Virus record (IMG/VR): IMGVR_UViG_3300034375_006997
Location: 1-26,739 of that record
DNA: 26,739 nt
Strand: one strand, 5' to 3'
DNA from: a virus
Position 1 is the stretch's first letter; each line of letters opens with the position of its first letter. Position numbers and translations under genes: made by a program. The notes beneath the pieces were generated by a model. The model worked only from the letters and a program-made list of their open reading frames with translations. It was not told the DNA's origin and searched no databases. Shown here piece by piece: positions 5,772 through 20,511 of the stretch.

Positions 5772-6000
5772 AGTTGGCCTCGAAATGTTGGTACGAAGCC
5801 TCCTTGATAAGGTCGAGTTCGTGGTTAATGATTACTCTCGCTACTGTAATCATGTTAGCCACGATTCCAGGGTTAATGCACGGACCCCCATCTTCGTCGT
5901 GCAAATCCTCGTAAAACTCAGTGATGTAGTTGTGCAGGCGTAAGCATGCCATGCTGTAGCTATCACTTAGCTGCTTTTTTGTTAGATCTCTTTTTGCCAT
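5719..6000 (-). CDS. Hypothetical phage protein
   Basis: 93 aa, mainly helical and acidic toward the C-terminus (EQAEILFGDGEGS). No family recognised. It starts 38 nt inside the endonuclease I-like gene and ends 53 nt inside the next nuclease, so the three are translated as a tightly overlapped set. Its position between two nucleases suggests DNA metabolism or a regulatory partner, but this is only context. Confidence 0.65.
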   Translation of the reverse strand: MAKRDLTKKQLSDSYSMACLRLHNYITEFYEDLHDEDGGPCINPGIVANMITVARVIINHELDLIKEASYQHFEANYDQSEQAEILFGDGEGS

Positions 6001-6448
6001 ATCCTAGTTCTTTTAGTTTCGCTATCGCTTGCTCCACCTGGTGTTTGTTTTTGCAGATGAAGAGAGCTGGGACTGGTTCTCCTGAGTCTATCAAGTGACG
6101 AAGGAACAGCTTCCACCGCATCGGGAAATCATGATGCGAAGGAGTGTACCCTTTGGTTTCGATTACCCACTCTCCGTTTGGTCCTACGAAGTCGGGTGTG
6201 TATTTGATTGGAAGGACTATCGAATCTGTTCGGTCCGACAGGTCTTTCTTCTTGGCAGTCATCTTCCAGTATGGACCAGGGTATTTGAACTTATCTACGA
6301 GCATGTATTCATGTGTCTCGTAGGTAAATTTTAGCCCCGATTCAGCTAAAAGATCAGCGCATGTCTTCTCTAAACCGCTCTTATACTTACCTAATGAACG
6401 TTTCTTAGCTGACTTACGCCGTGGAGTCCCCTTTGTTTGTCGCTTCAC
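5963..6448 (-). CDS. T7 endonuclease I-like Holliday junction resolvase
   Basis: 161 aa from a GTG start. A basic N-terminus (KRQTKGTPRRKSAKKR) is followed by YKSGLE with E27, then YTPDF with D86, then VIETKG with E97 and K99. E-(PD)-ExK with a short gap between D and E matches T7 gp3 (E20, D55, E65, K67 in T7). Such enzymes cut branched DNA, debranching concatemers before packaging. The C-terminal end is again Lys-rich. A TAACTTTG promoter-like -7 box lies 5 nt before the GTG. Confidence 0.75.
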   Translation of the reverse strand: MKRQTKGTPRRKSAKKRSLGKYKSGLEKTCADLLAESGLKFTYETHEYMLVDKFKYPGPYWKMTAKKKDLSDRTDSIVLPIKYTPDFVGPNGEWVIETKGYTPSHHDFPMRWKLFLRHLIDSGEPVPALFICKNKHQVEQAIAKLKELGYGKKRSNKKAAK

Positions 6449-10303: not shown

Positions 10304-10854
10304 CGTACAAACTTCTTGAGACCCGCCACTTGCTTCTCAGTGAGGGAAGACTCGTACTTGTCCATGATGCTGTTGAATGCTTTCTTCTTGTCGGTCTGCG
10401 ACTTGATGTATGCAACAGCCTTGTCCATGATGTTTACAGGCGGCTCCGTGTCGAGCTTCTCTTGTACCTGCTTGACCTTCTTGGACGTCGTGCTTTCTTG
10501 CTTGGCGATGGCGTCCGTGACTTCATTAGCTGACGCAATAGAAGTGTCGATTCCGATTCCAAGCATAGCGAGGGCTCGCCCGATCGCTGAAGTCTCGCAG
10601 TTCTCAACGTAGCTGGTCTTGTTGATGTTGGATGCACCTTGCACTTCGTGTGCATGTCCAGTGGCAATAACACGTCCAGAAGCATCTGCGATGGTTGCCT
10701 TGCAGACACATTGTTCTGAATCAAGGGCAGGGAACTCAGACATGATTGTCCAGTTCTTGTACTGCTCCTCTTGACGGAAGTACTTGATACGTTCGTTGAC
10801 TTCGACATACTGCTTGCCACGGATGTTGGTTGTTTTGAATTTGTAGTTAGACAT
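10300..10854 (-). CDS. Probable single-strand DNA annealing protein (Rad52/Erf-like)
   Basis: 184 aa. Residues 12-118 hold GKQYVEVNERIKYFR, NWTIMSE, a two-strand unit KATIADASGRVIATGHA, then NKTSYVENCETSAIGRALAML followed by GIGIDTSIASANEV. The T-S-A-I-G-R-A-L helix and the following G-I-G resemble the conserved part of phage annealing proteins of the Rad52/Erf superfamily. Residues 119-184 are a charged linker and helical tail. Its neighbour two genes downstream is the RecE-like exonuclease, the classic partner. Exact subfamily is uncertain. It overlaps the DnaA-like gene by 8 nt. Confidence 0.55.
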   Translation of the reverse strand: MSNYKFKTTNIRGKQYVEVNERIKYFRQEEQYKNWTIMSEFPALDSEQCVCKATIADASGRVIATGHAHEVQGASNINKTSYVENCETSAIGRALAMLGIGIDTSIASANEVTDAIAKQESTTSKKVKQVQEKLDTEPPVNIMDKAVAYIKSQTDKKKAFNSIMDKYESSLTEKQVAGLKKFVR

Positions 10855-11239
10855 GGGTAACTTTATTTGATTGAATTGTTTCTTCTAGTTTTTGTTGCAC
10901 TCGTTTTAGTCTGGCTATGCTCGCCTTCACGGATTTAAGCTTGGATTGCCAAGCCTTGTACCTTAGCGTCTCCCCACACAGTCGCACAGCAGCTATGTAG
11001 TTTTTCTCATAGCCAGGCCATGTGGCAAGGTTAGCTTCATGCTTACCTGTGTGGTGAATCACAGTACTGTGATCGGAGTCGAAAAGTTTTGCTATTGATG
11101 TTGTCGTCAGGTCGTTCTGACGCATGGCGGTCATCATCGCCGCTCGTGCTTTTACTTGTTCTTGGTGTCTTGTTCTATCAGGTTTGAGTCCAAGTACATG
11201 GTAGTACTCTTTCAGTATTTGTTTTCCTTCGTTGTGCAT
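10847..11239 (-). CDS. DnaA domain IV-like DNA-binding protein
   Basis: 130 aa. Residues 24-70 look like the DNA-binding domain IV of bacterial DnaA: a basic helix (QVKARAAMMTAMRQ), a helix-turn-helix (TTTSIAKLF) and the signature D56-H-S-T-V-I-H62 followed by a basic helix. In DnaA the D-H-T-T-V-x-H motif reads DnaA boxes. No AAA+ ATPase is present; instead a Lys-rich helical tail (about 90-125) probably forms a coiled coil. It may mark the phage origin or compete with host DnaA. DnaA-box-like sites occur at 19445-19464. It heads the recombination genes after a 114-nt structured gap. Confidence 0.7.
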   Translation of the reverse strand: MHNEGKQILKEYYHVLGLKPDRTRHQEQVKARAAMMTAMRQNDLTTTSIAKLFDSDHSTVIHHTGKHEANLATWPGYEKNYIAAVRLCGETLRYKAWQSKLKSVKASIARLKRVQQKLEETIQSNKVTHV

Positions 11240-13080: not shown

Positions 13081-13104
13081 GTGTTAGAGTTTTGAATTGT
13101 TCGA

Positions 13105-13136
13105 CAAAGATATGATGAGGAATCCGTTATTCCAAA
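13105..13136 (-). promoter_or_regulatory. Bacteroidota-type promoter for the fifth cassette
   Basis: On the - strand TTTG (13136-13133), exactly 20 nt, then TATCTTTG (13112-13105). This matches the -33 TTTG / -7 TAnnTTTG consensus of Bacteroidota primary sigma factor. The -33 box is part of a longer AAATAAATTTGGA shared with the promoters at 15422 and 17858. The -7 box ends 24 nt before the ATG at 13080. Confidence 0.8.
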
Positions 13137-13137
13137 T

Positions 13138-13539
13138 TTATTTTGCAATTGACTGATTATCAACCCTTAAGACGATGTGGTCAATGTAGTCATCCATCAG
13201 GTCAGATAGCCCGCCGTCCTGATCGAACTGTACATACCCAAGCAACTTGGTCTTGAGCCTGTCTACATTCAAGCCTGCGAACTCCTCGATGTCATCGAAG
13301 TATTCGTTCCACCATGGGTTGATTGAGTAATCCGTGTAGTACTCCTCGTCCTCGTCCATCTCTTCTACTTGGTTTACGATGTTACCCGCTCCGTTGTTGA
13401 AGATGTCGTAGTTGATTTTGGCAATGGCTCGCATGGCGTTGCCTTCTGCTGTGTCCGCCCGCCCGCTTTCGGGTACGAGGTTCTTCCAGTGCTTGTGAAA
13501 CAGGTCTTGGTATTGACCCTCTCCGTTCCAGTATTTCAT
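13138..13539 (-). CDS. Hypothetical acidic protein
   Basis: 133 aa from the ATG at 13539, which overlaps the preceding stop as ATGA; the longer open frame to 13746 is the shadow of the zinc-ribbon gene. Very acidic (QVEEMDEDEEYYTDYS, EYFDDIEEFAG) with aromatic residues and an aliphatic C-terminus. The 3' end abuts the promoter of the next cassette. Function unknown. Confidence 0.65.
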   Translation of the reverse strand: MKYWNGEGQYQDLFHKHWKNLVPESGRADTAEGNAMRAIAKINYDIFNNGAGNIVNQVEEMDEDEEYYTDYSINPWWNEYFDDIEEFAGLNVDRLKTKLLGYVQFDQDGGLSDLMDDYIDHIVLRVDNQSIAK

Positions 13540-15385: not shown

Positions 15386-15421
15386 GTGTTAAAGATTTAG
15401 ATGATGTCGTTGTTGACACCG

Positions 15422-15453
15422 CAAAGATAAGACAGAGTTTTCGTTTTTCCAAA
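15422..15453 (-). promoter_or_regulatory. Bacteroidota-type promoter for the third cassette
   Basis: On the - strand TTTG (15453-15450), 20 nt, TATCTTTG (15429-15422), with the same AAATAAATTTGGA upstream part as at 13105 and 17858. The upstream gene's 3' end (15455) touches the -33 region. Confidence 0.8.
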
Positions 15454-15454
15454 T

Positions 15455-15721
15455 TTATTTTGTAACTGACTGGTTTTCAGTAGGTTGGACAAGGCCATCA
15501 ACTTGGTAAGAGTAGCACCAATGTCCGTTGTTCAGGGTCAGTACGTAATGCTCATCCAAGCCCACAGCATCCACCTCATCCCCGTACTTTTCGTTCGGGC
15601 CTTGCGTCTGCTCGATTGCGATTACCTCTGCGATGCGCTGTCCGTCGCGCCCCCATGACCCACGGTATAGCACCTTTGAGCCTTTGCGAATGATTCGCGT
15701 GTTGAAGATTGATGTGTTCAT
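15455..15721 (-). CDS. Small beta-rich protein
   Basis: 88 aa. The segment GSKVLYRGSWGRDGQRIAEVIAIE resembles an SH3/KOW-type small barrel, followed by VLTLNNGHWCYSY and a polar tail. It may bind nucleic acid or be structural; family not recognised. ATGA overlap with the preceding gene; its end abuts the next promoter. Confidence 0.65.
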   Translation of the reverse strand: MNTSIFNTRIIRKGSKVLYRGSWGRDGQRIAEVIAIEQTQGPNEKYGDEVDAVGLDEHYVLTLNNGHWCYSYQVDGLVQPTENQSVTK

Positions 15722-17820: not shown

Positions 17821-17857
17821 CAGTAAGAGATTTTGAGTTTGGCAGAATTGCCGACAA

Positions 17858-17889
17858 CAAAGATAGGGCAAAGAATCCCTAAATCCAAA
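17858..17889 (-). promoter_or_regulatory. Bacteroidota-type promoter for the first cassette
   Basis: On the - strand TTTG (17889-17886), 20 nt, TATCTTTG (17865-17858), with the AAATAAATTTGGA upstream part. The same spacing and flank occur at 13105 and 15422. It lies just past the stop of the 95-aa gene (17899). Confidence 0.8.
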
Positions 17890-17898
17890 TTTATTTTT

Positions 17899-18186
17899 TT
17901 ACCCTTTAGGGTAGAGTTCCATTTCTTCATCGAAATCATCGACTACTTCGAGCATCTGCCACGTCAGCCCGTCCGCACTCCAGCTTACGGCAGTGTGCGA
18001 TTCACACGCTGGCTCGAACACGTAGTCCGCGCTCTCGCACTCACACACATAGCAGACCTCGTCCTGCACCATCATCGAGGCCGCCCACTCGCAGGCCGCC
18101 TCCTCGTCCACGAAGTTCCGCTTGCAGCGAAACTCTCCACGCTCTTCACCGAAGGTGAAGACAAAAGCAAAAATTGGATTCATCAT
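17899..18186 (-). CDS. Cys-rich acidic hypothetical protein
   Basis: 95 aa. Strand-rich start (NPIFAFVFTFGEERGEF), Cys at several sites including C-Y-V-C-E-C, then VSWSADGLTWQMLEVVDDFDEE. Could bind zinc. The gene carries at least two hairpins of the large array (18143-18161 inside it, 18185-18201 at its start). Two adjacent ATGs (18186, 18183). Function unknown. Confidence 0.65.
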   Translation of the reverse strand: MMNPIFAFVFTFGEERGEFRCKRNFVDEEAACEWAASMMVQDEVCYVCECESADYVFEPACESHTAVSWSADGLTWQMLEVVDDFDEEMELYPKG

Positions 18187-18223
18187 AAATCTTTGATTTA
18201 TAGGGTTTAACTAAAACTTCGTT

Positions 18224-18949
18224 TTAAACTGCGGGAGCAAAGGATGGCTCTAACATCGGATTTCCAGAGGAAATCAGCGCCTCTGCCTCCAGACGCTCTT
18301 GCTCCAAGCGAGCGGAGCGGAGTCGAGCCATTGCCTCCTCTGGCGACTCTCCTGGAAGGAGAGTCAGCTTCATTTGTTCCTTCTTTCGAACCTTCGGTTC
18401 GACGATCTGAACCTCTTTACGAGGTTCAAAAGGTTGAGCCTCGCCACCGTCAACTGCGTTGACGACTTTGGTTTTCTGAACCTTGCCAACTTTGTTGGCA
18501 GTAGCTGTCTTAGCTTGAGTTAACTCAAGCCCAGCAGTTGACGACCTTTTAGGTCGTCGAACTGCCTTCTTGTTCTTCTTCGAAGAACGAGCAGCCTCTC
18601 TCTCCTCTTGGAGGAGAGCATGAAGCTCCTTGTTCAGAACGGAACGTTCTGACCTTTTCAACTTCTTACCAGAGGTAAGAACAGCCTCAATCTCAGCCTT
18701 ACGGCTGGACTTCGACTTCGACTTCGAAGCCTTTGGCTTCGCCTTAGAAGCCTTCGGCTTCTTCTTAGACTTCGAAGCCTTCGGCTTCGGCTGCTCCTTC
18801 GGAGCATCGATGGAGTCGATAAACTCCGACAACGAAGCTAAAGCTTCGAGGCAGCACTGCTTCTTAGAAGCAGAAGGGTTGAACACAAAGCTGTTAACAG
18901 CTTTCTTAGCTGCCTTCAGCAGCTCTGAGTGGTTGGTGGTTTTTGCCAT
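18224..18949 (-). CDS. Lysine-rich, histone-like protein in the hairpin array
   Basis: 241 aa. Residues 1-48 form a helical head (HSELLKAAKKAVNSF, CCLEALASLSEFIDSI). About 53-90 is a low-complexity basic tract of K-P-K-A-S-K units like histone H1 tails. Two more charged helical blocks follow (residues ~90-150 and ~200-228, EEAMARLRSARLEQERLEAE). It probably coats or condenses nucleic acid. The DNA is the odd part: about 25 perfect short inverted repeats run through the coding sequence. A 23-bp hairpin lies just before the start (18956-19014). No promoter box is obvious. The reading frame is supported by the way hairpin centres avoid one codon position. Confidence 0.65.
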   Translation of the reverse strand: MAKTTNHSELLKAAKKAVNSFVFNPSASKKQCCLEALASLSEFIDSIDAPKEQPKPKASKSKKKPKASKAKPKASKSKSKSSRKAEIEAVLTSGKKLKRSERSVLNKELHALLQEEREAARSSKKNKKAVRRPKRSSTAGLELTQAKTATANKVGKVQKTKVVNAVDGGEAQPFEPRKEVQIVEPKVRKKEQMKLTLLPGESPEEAMARLRSARLEQERLEAEALISSGNPMLEPSFAPAV

Positions 18950-18955
18950 CCTTGT

Positions 18956-19014
18956 TAGATATTAAGAGTAAATAAAGAATTCACAGAATTCATTCTTTAT
19001 TTACTCTATATCTA
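18956..19014 (-). promoter_or_regulatory. Long leader hairpin before the lysine-rich gene
   Basis: AGAGTAAATAAAGAAT pairs perfectly with its complement (18965-18980 with 18992-19007, 16 bp, 11-nt loop). TAGATAT/ATATCTA adds 7 bp outside after a 2-nt bulge. The loop edge carries two GAATTC copies. It ends 7 nt before the start codon at 18949, so in mRNA it would sit against the ribosome site and could control translation; as DNA it could extrude a cruciform. Confidence 0.65.
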
Positions 19015-19152
19015 CTTCCTCCAATTCCTGCGGTATCAGCAAGCTGATACTCATACGATTGGTAGCCAAACATATGAGCATCAAAGATGCTTCAGCGCGT
19101 TTGGAAGTGAGCCTTCAGGATTGATGGCGAAGGGTTAAACCAAAGGTTTAAA

Positions 19153-19233
19153 GAGGGGATTGTCAGATGGTGGCTTTCAACTACTTACGTAGTTTAGCTT
19201 AAAGCAGTTTCTAACCAAGCCACTCAATCCCTC
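19153..19233. ncRNA. Nested long-range stem structure
   Basis: GAGG(G)GATTG at 19153-19162 pairs with CAATCCCTC at 19225-19233, and GTGGCTT (19170-19176) pairs with AAGCCAC (19217-19223). Between them sits the hairpin AACTAC/GTAGTT (19179-19194). The order of pairing is nested, as in a folded RNA of about 81 nt; the strand of transcription is unknown. No gene overlaps it. Confidence 0.45.
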
Positions 19234-19444
19234 TGATTATCAGTTAGTTAACTGATATCAGCTGTTAACTTCGTAGAAGTTACTTCTCACGTCGCAGCTT
19301 TGAAAAAGCTGAAAGTTTTGCTAAAACCCTGAGCGCATTATGCCCACGGGGTTTGCGGAATCGATTTCGGGTTCGAGGACAAAACGCTAGTAGGTGTAGA
19401 GAATCCCCACGATCTGTATTACAAACCCCTTTTTTAAGGCTGGT

Positions 19445-19464
19445 TTATCCACGCGATATCCACA
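19445..19464 (+). promoter_or_regulatory. Two DnaA-box-like sites
   Basis: TTATCCACG (19445-19453) and ATATCCACA (19456-19464) each differ by one base from the DnaA box TTATCCACA. They point the same way and start 11 bp apart, one helical turn. They lie in the gene-free divergent region next to an AT-rich stretch. The phage encodes a protein with a DnaA domain IV-like reader (10847-11239). Confidence 0.55.
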
Positions 19465-19713
19465 AAACGCCTATTTACTCTGGTGTAACATGCTGTTGCT
19501 CAGTAAGCTAATTGTATTTACTTCAAGCAGATTCTAGGATTTGACTTTCTAAAAAAAAAGCTGTAACTTCGCCCAAGCTATGTTAGCGATAAAGCTTCGA
19601 AGCTGTTTTTACTACGAAGCTATCAAAAGAGAGTGCGTATGTACGCACAAAACGGACACTTCTAAGCGTCATTCAAGCATATGAAGCTGTGAGAGGCGCA
19701 AAAACTGTTTTAT

Positions 19714-19721
19714 TATCTTTG
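19714..19721 (+). promoter_or_regulatory. -7 promoter box for the rightward genes
   Basis: TATCTTTG, an exact match to the Bacteroidota -7 element, followed 4 nt later by the ATG at 19726. No TTTG lies 20 nt upstream, so another activator or a different polymerase factor may be needed. The mRNA would have almost no leader. Confidence 0.55.
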
Positions 19722-19725
19722 TGAC

Positions 19726-19965
19726 ATGAGACCAAAGAAGAGATCCGTAGAAAAAGGCATGTATACCGTTGAGGTAGACGGAGAAGAGTACCTTATTAAA
19801 GGGAAGAAGGTCACCAAGAAGGGTAAGAACAAGACTGTTGTCAAGTTCAAGGCTAAAGGTGACGGCGAGAGCTCACCTATTAAGCGTATCAACGACAAGT
19901 TGGTGATGAAGAACGGTCTTGTCAAGAAGAACAAGAAGAGAACCAAGTTCGTAAAGAAGAAGTAA
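19726..19965 (+). CDS. Small lysine-rich protein
   Basis: 79 aa with about 24 lysines. A short strand-rich part in the middle (MYTVEVDGEEYLIKGKKV) is flanked by basic tails and ends in a K/R-rich run. Likely binds DNA or RNA, or neutralises packaged DNA. First gene of the rightward set, 4 nt after a -7 box; its stop overlaps the next start as TAATG. Confidence 0.65.
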   Translation: MRPKKRSVEKGMYTVEVDGEEYLIKGKKVTKKGKNKTVVKFKAKGDGESSPIKRINDKLVMKNGLVKKNKKRTKFVKKK

Positions 19966-20165
19966 TGCCTACTATTCGAAAGAAAGCCCGACAGATTGCC
20001 CGCAAAGCGGTAGAACGCCAGAAAGCTGTTGCTAAGAACTTGAAGAAGACGGACAGATCTGCTGGTAGGGCGTTGATGAAGAGGGTGAGGGAGGACAAGA
20101 GGCGCATCAAGAAGAACTACATCCAGACCCGCAAGGATATCAAAAAACAGCTTAAGAAGAAATAA
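19965..20165 (+). CDS. Small Arg/Lys-rich helical protein
   Basis: 66 aa with about 17 Lys and 11 Arg, all helix-forming (RKKARQIARKAVERQKAVAK...). Strongly basic helix suggests nucleic-acid binding or a DNA-condensing virion component. TAATG overlap with the preceding gene. Function unknown. Confidence 0.65.
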   Translation: MPTIRKKARQIARKAVERQKAVAKNLKKTDRSAGRALMKRVREDKRRIKKNYIQTRKDIKKQLKKK

Positions 20166-20166
20166 G

Positions 20167-20174
20167 TATATTTG
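20167..20174 (+). promoter_or_regulatory. -7 promoter box with short leader
   Basis: TATATTTG, matching TAnnTTTG, then CGTT and the ATG at 20179. The 12 bases ATATTTGCGTTATG-like block recurs before 20525. No clear -33 box. Confidence 0.45.
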
Positions 20175-20178
20175 CGTT

Positions 20179-20511
20179 ATGAAAGCCAAGAAAAAAAAGA
20201 CGTTTATTCACGGTCAGAACACGTCTACAATTAGAACTGACGAGGACGGTAGGAAGTTCGTTTGGTATGCTGGCTCTGACGGAACAACAGCAAAAGCATC
20301 AGATGAGAAGTGGAGTAAGATCCCAGGTGCTAAAAAGATTTACGGAACGGAAAAGCAACTCAAAAAAAAGTCGGAGGGAAACAACAACCGCATATTAACT
20401 GACGACTACATGCACAAGGTGAAGAAGGGTAAAGATGGTAGCATGAAGTTTGCCAAGAACAACATGAGAATGAGGGTAGCTTCTGCGTTAAGATCCGCCT
20501 TAAATAGATAA
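20179..20511 (+). CDS. Basic protein with an FVWYAG module
   Basis: 110 aa. After a Lys-rich start (MKAKKKKTF) comes RTDEDGRKFVWYAGSDG, then W-x-x-I-P-G-A-K-K-I-Y-G and DDYMHKV...DGSM. The same order (FVWYAG, SD-x-x-W, A-x-K-x-YG, DD-x-Y-I, DGS-Y) is present in the next gene, so the two share a domain. The C-terminus is basic helical. Probably virion-associated; role unknown. Confidence 0.65.
   Translation: MKAKKKKTFIHGQNTSTIRTDEDGRKFVWYAGSDGTTAKASDEKWSKIPGAKKIYGTEKQLKKKSEGNNNRILTDDYMHKVKKGKDGSMKFAKNNMRMRVASALRSALNR

Follow-up and report, generated by a model that had tools for sequence, protein, structure and literature searches.

The DNA analyzed here is a 26.7-kb virus record, referred to in full as the window, in which the region from 18143 to 19648 was analyzed as an array of short, perfect hairpins. 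The leftward early arm of this phage encodes a class II-like ribonucleotide reductase, a T7 endonuclease I-like junction resolvase (5963..6448, minus strand; PF05367, E = 1.2e-8), a BT4734/DnaB primase-helicase, exonuclease VIII, and a protein with a DnaA C-terminal domain. The best match of the primase in a cultured phage is to Maribacter phage Panino (34% identity), and most of its other matches are to phages of Flavobacterium, Cellulophaga, and Nonlabens; these matches point to Bacteroidota as the probable hosts. No comparable array is present in Panino, which by its primase is the closest of the cultured phages. The phages that carry the array form an uncultured family, with hosts probably among the Bacteroidota.

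The array-bearing gene (18224..18949, minus strand) encodes a 241-aa protein rich in lysine, alanine, and serine, in which helices are linked by disordered stretches. The product belongs to no known family; its AlphaFold model is of low confidence (mean pLDDT 68, pTM 0.25), and a PDB fold search with this model gave no match. The reading frame is conserved at 44 to 89% amino acid identity in approximately 27 relatives, which are the usable loci from our scans and all come from IMG/VR; none were found in the genome contigs or cultured phages searched. Adjoining the array, downstream of this gene, is a gene for a 95-aa acidic protein (17899-18186). It is present in most array-rich relatives and absent from the loci L066, L067, L070, and L059; despite its absence from some array-poor relatives, we rejected it as a partner of the array, because it is missing from L059 and present in L065.

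At the left end of the array (18143..18226), the hairpin TCTTCACC[gaa]GGTGAAGA lies inside the next gene, ATAAATC[ttt]GATTTAT overlaps the start codon of that gene, and TAAAAC[ttc]GTTTTA falls within the same interval. Relatives have other perfect stems at these positions, including some relatives in which the next gene is not homologous. The coding part (18259..18924) contains 20 perfect hairpins with stems of 6 to 9 bp and loops of 2 to 5 nt, and these stems differ from one another except for three copies of GAAGCC. Just 5' of the start codon of the array gene, direct reading reveals a 16-bp long inverted repeat with an inner GAATTC..GAATTC (18965..19007), which is kept in homologues with altered arms. 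The noncoding part (19033..19311) contributes seven perfect hairpins, and at the position of an outlying hairpin, GTGCGTA[tg]TACGCAC (19633..19648), relatives have different perfect stems instead.

The hairpin array is real and strong. With perfect stems of at least 6 bp and loops of 2 to 8 nt, the window contains 74 nonoverlapping hairpins, 33 of them between 18143 and 19648, and the density is not matched elsewhere, the rest of the window carrying only approximately 1.5 per kb. The initial annotation had reported more than 35 hairpins here; the array itself is confirmed, and the strict count is lower, at 31 to 33. It had also put the chance expectation for hairpins with a 7-bp stem and a 3-nt loop at about 0.1 in 1.5 kb; the mean in 500 dinucleotide shuffles was 0.146 (maximum, 3), 19 were observed, and the other 25.2 kb of the window contain one. 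The excess survives codon-preserving shuffles as well, with 17 hairpins (7 bp, loop of 2 to 3 nt) in the gene from 18949 to 18224 versus 0.41 in 300 shuffles (maximum, 4), and the 450 nt upstream of the gene hold 5 versus 0.07 in dinucleotide shuffles. Folded as single-stranded DNA, 591 nt of the array gene reach a z score of -13.7 relative to shuffled sequence. The succession about every 20 to 40 nt that was first described also needs a small correction: we found no regular spacing, and the coefficient of variation of the gaps (0.70 to 0.91) is near the value of approximately 0.95 for random placement. No repeat sequence is shared among the stems of the array or those of relatives, in agreement with the earlier view that this is not REP, CRISPR, or iteron DNA.

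The array is located where the transcription arms diverge, as had been noted, and is bounded by promoter-like elements, with TATCTTTG at 17858 leftward and at 19714 rightward. The rightward element (19714..19726, plus strand) closes the divergent region on its right side. Its end lies four bases ahead of the ATG with which the rightward genes begin, and the mRNA of the first of these genes is therefore probably leaderless. The left boundary is the promoter-like pair TAAATTTG/TATCTTTG of the leftward operon (17858..17893, minus strand). Between these lie two DnaA-box-like sites, TTATCCACG and ATATCCACA (19445..19464, plus strand), each one mismatch from TTWTNCACA; the strict pattern is not present at this place in the window itself. 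Perfect boxes occur near the corresponding place in approximately 10 relatives, with 15 in 15.4 kb of upstream stretches versus 5 in 311 kb elsewhere, an enrichment of approximately 60-fold. GC and AT skew change sign at approximately 19.0 to 19.7 kb, a flip that divergent transcription alone could produce. A cluster of boxes at the skew switch, as looked for at a DnaA-dependent origin, is thus found in relatives and in imperfect form in the window. A possible initiator is the DnaA C-terminal helix-turn-helix protein encoded at 10847..11239 (minus strand), which matches PF08299 at E = 2.5e-7 and 31.1 bits against a cut-off of 31.5. From these sequence features, we predict that a replication origin likely lies just to the right of the array, and the hairpin- or cruciform-rich origin region proposed in the initial annotation fits both the DnaA boxes and the skew flip.

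In every array-rich locus the hairpin peak has the same position, and the presence of the array is specific to lineages. Stems of at least 7 bp within the gene number 16 to 19 in the clade of the window, 8 to 15 in L049 to L056, 5 to 7 in L057 to L063, 3 to 4 in L064 to L067, and 1 in L070. The L070 contig, which is also that of L030, encodes a primase approximately 80% identical to that of the window. This array-less relative retains the same gene, with motifs such as GLEQAQA and ATANKVGKV, and the upstream elements, and the codons of its gene form no such hairpins. Since L070 has the gene without the array, the array is not indispensable to this type of phage. Endonuclease I was rejected as the factor deciding array presence because it is also encoded by this relative, and nothing that we found in L070, with its similar primase and the same endonuclease I, explains why it lacks the array.

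In the clade of the window, approximately 40 hairpin loci were compared across 11 genomes; the stems differ, and nearly all of them are perfect in each genome. One locus reads GTGCGTA[ca]TACGCAC, GTTTGCA[ct]TGCAAAC, GTTTGTC[cca]GACAAAC, or GTTGTATT[tc]AATACAAC in different genomes. Stems broken by unpaired changes in relatives had been named as the observation that would speak against the array, and we found the opposite: the arms change together and intermediates are rare, as is expected of template switching. In pairwise alignments, among which related genomes are not independent, two-sided versus one-sided changes at 10 to 20% nonstem divergence numbered 138 versus 71 and 492 versus 163. 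When distinct single-pair events at interior stem positions 2 to 6 were counted, 30 were two-sided (15 transitions and 15 transversions) and 24 were one-sided (2 G.T, 4 A.C, and 18 other); one-sided changes fall mostly at the end of the stem (position 7). In noncoding DNA, the rate of two-sided change per pair is 0.55 to 0.71 of the nonstem rate per base (10 to 25% divergence), and within the gene the ratio is approximately 0.25 to 0.3. This is the outcome expected of coupled arms whose letters can change almost freely outside the gene; stems in the gene are partly constrained by the encoded protein. The noncoding rate is close to the prediction of arm copying and high for slow compensation via a broken intermediate. 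One palindrome was also exchanged for another by multiple bases at once, TGTTTGCtctGCAAACA versus TGTTTGCtctGCTTTCA (forms CTCTGCTttcAGCAGAG), with three right-arm changes at 11% divergence. Clear examples of this kind are single, and there is no overall excess of multi-base changes limited to one arm, for which reason we rejected one-arm creation events. Loop inversions between AA and TT with identical arms, seen at nine stem sequences, are suggestive, although loop composition alone makes such pairs common.

Perfect arms, paired drift, the lack of a wobble stage, palindrome switches, and lineage-specific gain and loss form the pattern that template switching, or repair copied from the opposite arm, would leave, and they suggest such a process here; the initial annotation had not raised it. 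We consider it somewhat probable that the array is a set of origin-proximal DNA hairpins in which template switching or hairpin-templated repair couples the two arms, and which may be selected for a folded-DNA role. In this divergently transcribed, origin-proximal region, the DNA would often be single-stranded or strongly underwound and would fold into stems of 7 to 8 bp with loops of 2 to 3 nt. If one arm mutated, the folded strand would offer the other arm as the template for DNA synthesis or repair, through template switching or hairpin-templated repair, and the pair would therefore be either restored or changed on both sides. Stems would in this way stay perfect while their letters drift, and chance mini-palindromes could grow to 7 to 8 bp until the region was nearly full. 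Folding of the hairpins in vivo and the template-switch mechanism are what we infer from this pattern, and the mechanism would explain stems that are perfect yet different without sequence-specific recognition. Template switching has published precedent as a process that creates and maintains perfect stems (PMC8794818, PMC8604942), and counterparts of arm copying have been described in yeast, rRNA genes, and nematomorph mitochondria (PMC8794818, PMC8604942, PMC6649704). The folded array is possibly also selected for a job, such as absorbing negative supercoils or positioning replication proteins.

Selection alone could keep the stems perfect if a folded DNA array, as single-strand hairpins or cruciforms, had a necessary role either at the origin or in the interval separating the divergent promoters, for example, to bind a structure-specific replication protein or to absorb negative supercoils; the paired changes would then be ordinary compensation. 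In large phage populations, double mutations can become fixed with no intermediate being seen, and such selection would be consistent with the narrow stem length (of 197 stems that reach 7 bp or more, 195 measure 7 to 9 bp), the short loops and pyrimidine-purine closing, and the confinement of the array to one stretch beside the probable origin. It would also suit the persistence of the array in relatives with 44 to 63% protein identity and the perfect stem kept at the start of the downstream gene even where an unrelated gene takes its place. However, the same gene and upstream elements occur in a relative that has no array, spacing is not regular, and two-sided changes in noncoding DNA, half of them transversions, proceed at approximately 0.6 of the nonstem rate, a rapid pace for compensation that has to pass through broken stems. 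We regard selection acting by itself as rather unlikely.

Stem and loop preferences bear on whether the folded molecule is DNA or RNA. Loops of 3 nt (88) and 2 nt (67) together account for 155 of the 197 distinct stems, loops of 0 or 1 nt are rare (17), and C or T stands immediately 5' of the loop in 174, giving a pyrimidine-purine closing pair; the background has flat loop lengths and C or T in 58 of 127. GNA and TNC loops are equally frequent, so that loop features mark no single strand, and the loop sequences of the 197 stems have no strand bias; GAA loops with C-G closing are common. Loopless perfect palindromes are not favored, which argues against ordinary dimer-binding sites, and operators of dimeric proteins were rejected given the lack of a shared half-site and of any preference for loops of 0 or 1 nt. 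Tolerance of G.U pairs is absent on either strand. Because of this absence, the dominance of 2- to 3-nt loops, and the pyrimidine-purine closing pair, we interpret the stems as DNA hairpins and not as structured RNA. The latter, offered as a possible role in the initial annotation, would take the form of a leftward transcript of the gene and its leader acting as a multi-hairpin regulator, decoy, or nuclease shield, and the RNA fold is indeed far better than that of shuffled sequence (z = -11.2), with one hairpin overlapping a start codon. This is nevertheless improbable: scanned near-perfect stems had 12 G.T, 7 A.C, and 27 other mismatches against the 197 perfect stems, interior one-sided changes were likewise mostly neither G.T (2) nor A.C (4) but other (18), 2-nt loops, a size that does not form as such in RNA, are common, and an Rfam search of the window returned only a tRNA and no RNA family for the array.

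Promoters of the N4 virion RNA polymerase are hairpins with a short stem (5 to 7 bp) and a 3-nt loop. Despite the resemblance in format and the common GAA loops closed by C-G, we give very little credence to hairpin promoters, or primase or packaging signals, recognized by a single phage enzyme, like the hairpin-reading polymerase once suggested for this array, because the loops are mixed and without strand bias, stems and loops have no common signal, flanks vary with no shared sequence, approximately 30 sites lie within 1.2 kb and mostly inside a gene, and no such polymerase was seen in the window.

Coding palindromes are known from mitochondrial genes of Nematomorpha, for which template switching has been proposed (PMC6649704). 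Like the array, they are perfect inverted repeats within genes, their arms encode conserved protein and stay identical, and they are gained and lost between species. The nematomorph palindromes reach 284 bp and are mitochondrial (PMC6649704), whereas the stems of the phage array are of 7 to 8 bp with 2- to 3-nt loops, are dense, extend into noncoding DNA, and lie beside a probable origin. Template-switch homogenization of short inverted repeats shares with the array two-sided changes, perfect arms, and multi-base palindrome switches (PMC8604942, PMC8794818), but it is known as scattered single events, whereas here a whole 1.2-kb tract is filled with stems. N4 promoters are also short-stem, 3-nt-loop DNA hairpins of a double-stranded DNA phage (PMC4496689), but they are few, have conserved loops and flanks, and serve one enzyme, in contrast to approximately 30 hairpins with no common sequence. 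The DGR target site is likewise a DNA hairpin or cruciform that acts as a structure in a phage-borne system (PMC3240598); it is one hairpin beside the variable repeat, and no DGR was recognized in the annotation of the window.

Judged by titles and abstracts, the open-access literature yielded no published description of such a phage array. The pattern that the array shows is a variant of the concerted evolution of inverted repeats, and a functional element of this sort would be new. We raise only tentatively the idea that a sequence-independent DNA-hairpin array beside a phage origin represents a new class of cis element, one that would work by folding, either through cruciform extrusion or on strands left exposed, with copying between the arms keeping it perfect inside a protein-coding gene. 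The array is a natural record of hairpin-arm coevolution, in which dozens of independent stems can be followed through many genomes and set against a relative that has no array. It makes a debated point directly testable, namely, whether stems acquire their compensatory changes through one mutation after another or through template switching. A functional fold would, in addition, make the array a DNA signal of structure alone, located at a phage origin and overlapping a gene.

Several further features of the window were observed. A very conserved element upstream of the array gene (19551-19610) ends in a run of nine T's in the sense of the gene and is possibly a small-RNA terminator. The rightward arm opens with three consecutive small, very lysine-rich proteins (19726-20511), and the genes at this place vary among relatives. 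A phage gene at 196-1431 has a Por_Secre_tail domain, the type IX secretion sorting signal of Bacteroidota. Three similar promoter-like cassettes precede leftward genes on the minus strand (17845-17925, 15409-15489, and 13092-13172), each laid out as AAAATAAATTTGGA followed approximately 20 bp on by TATCTTTG, and the cassette at 17845-17925 is itself preceded by a TACCCTttAGGGTA hairpin with an A-run.
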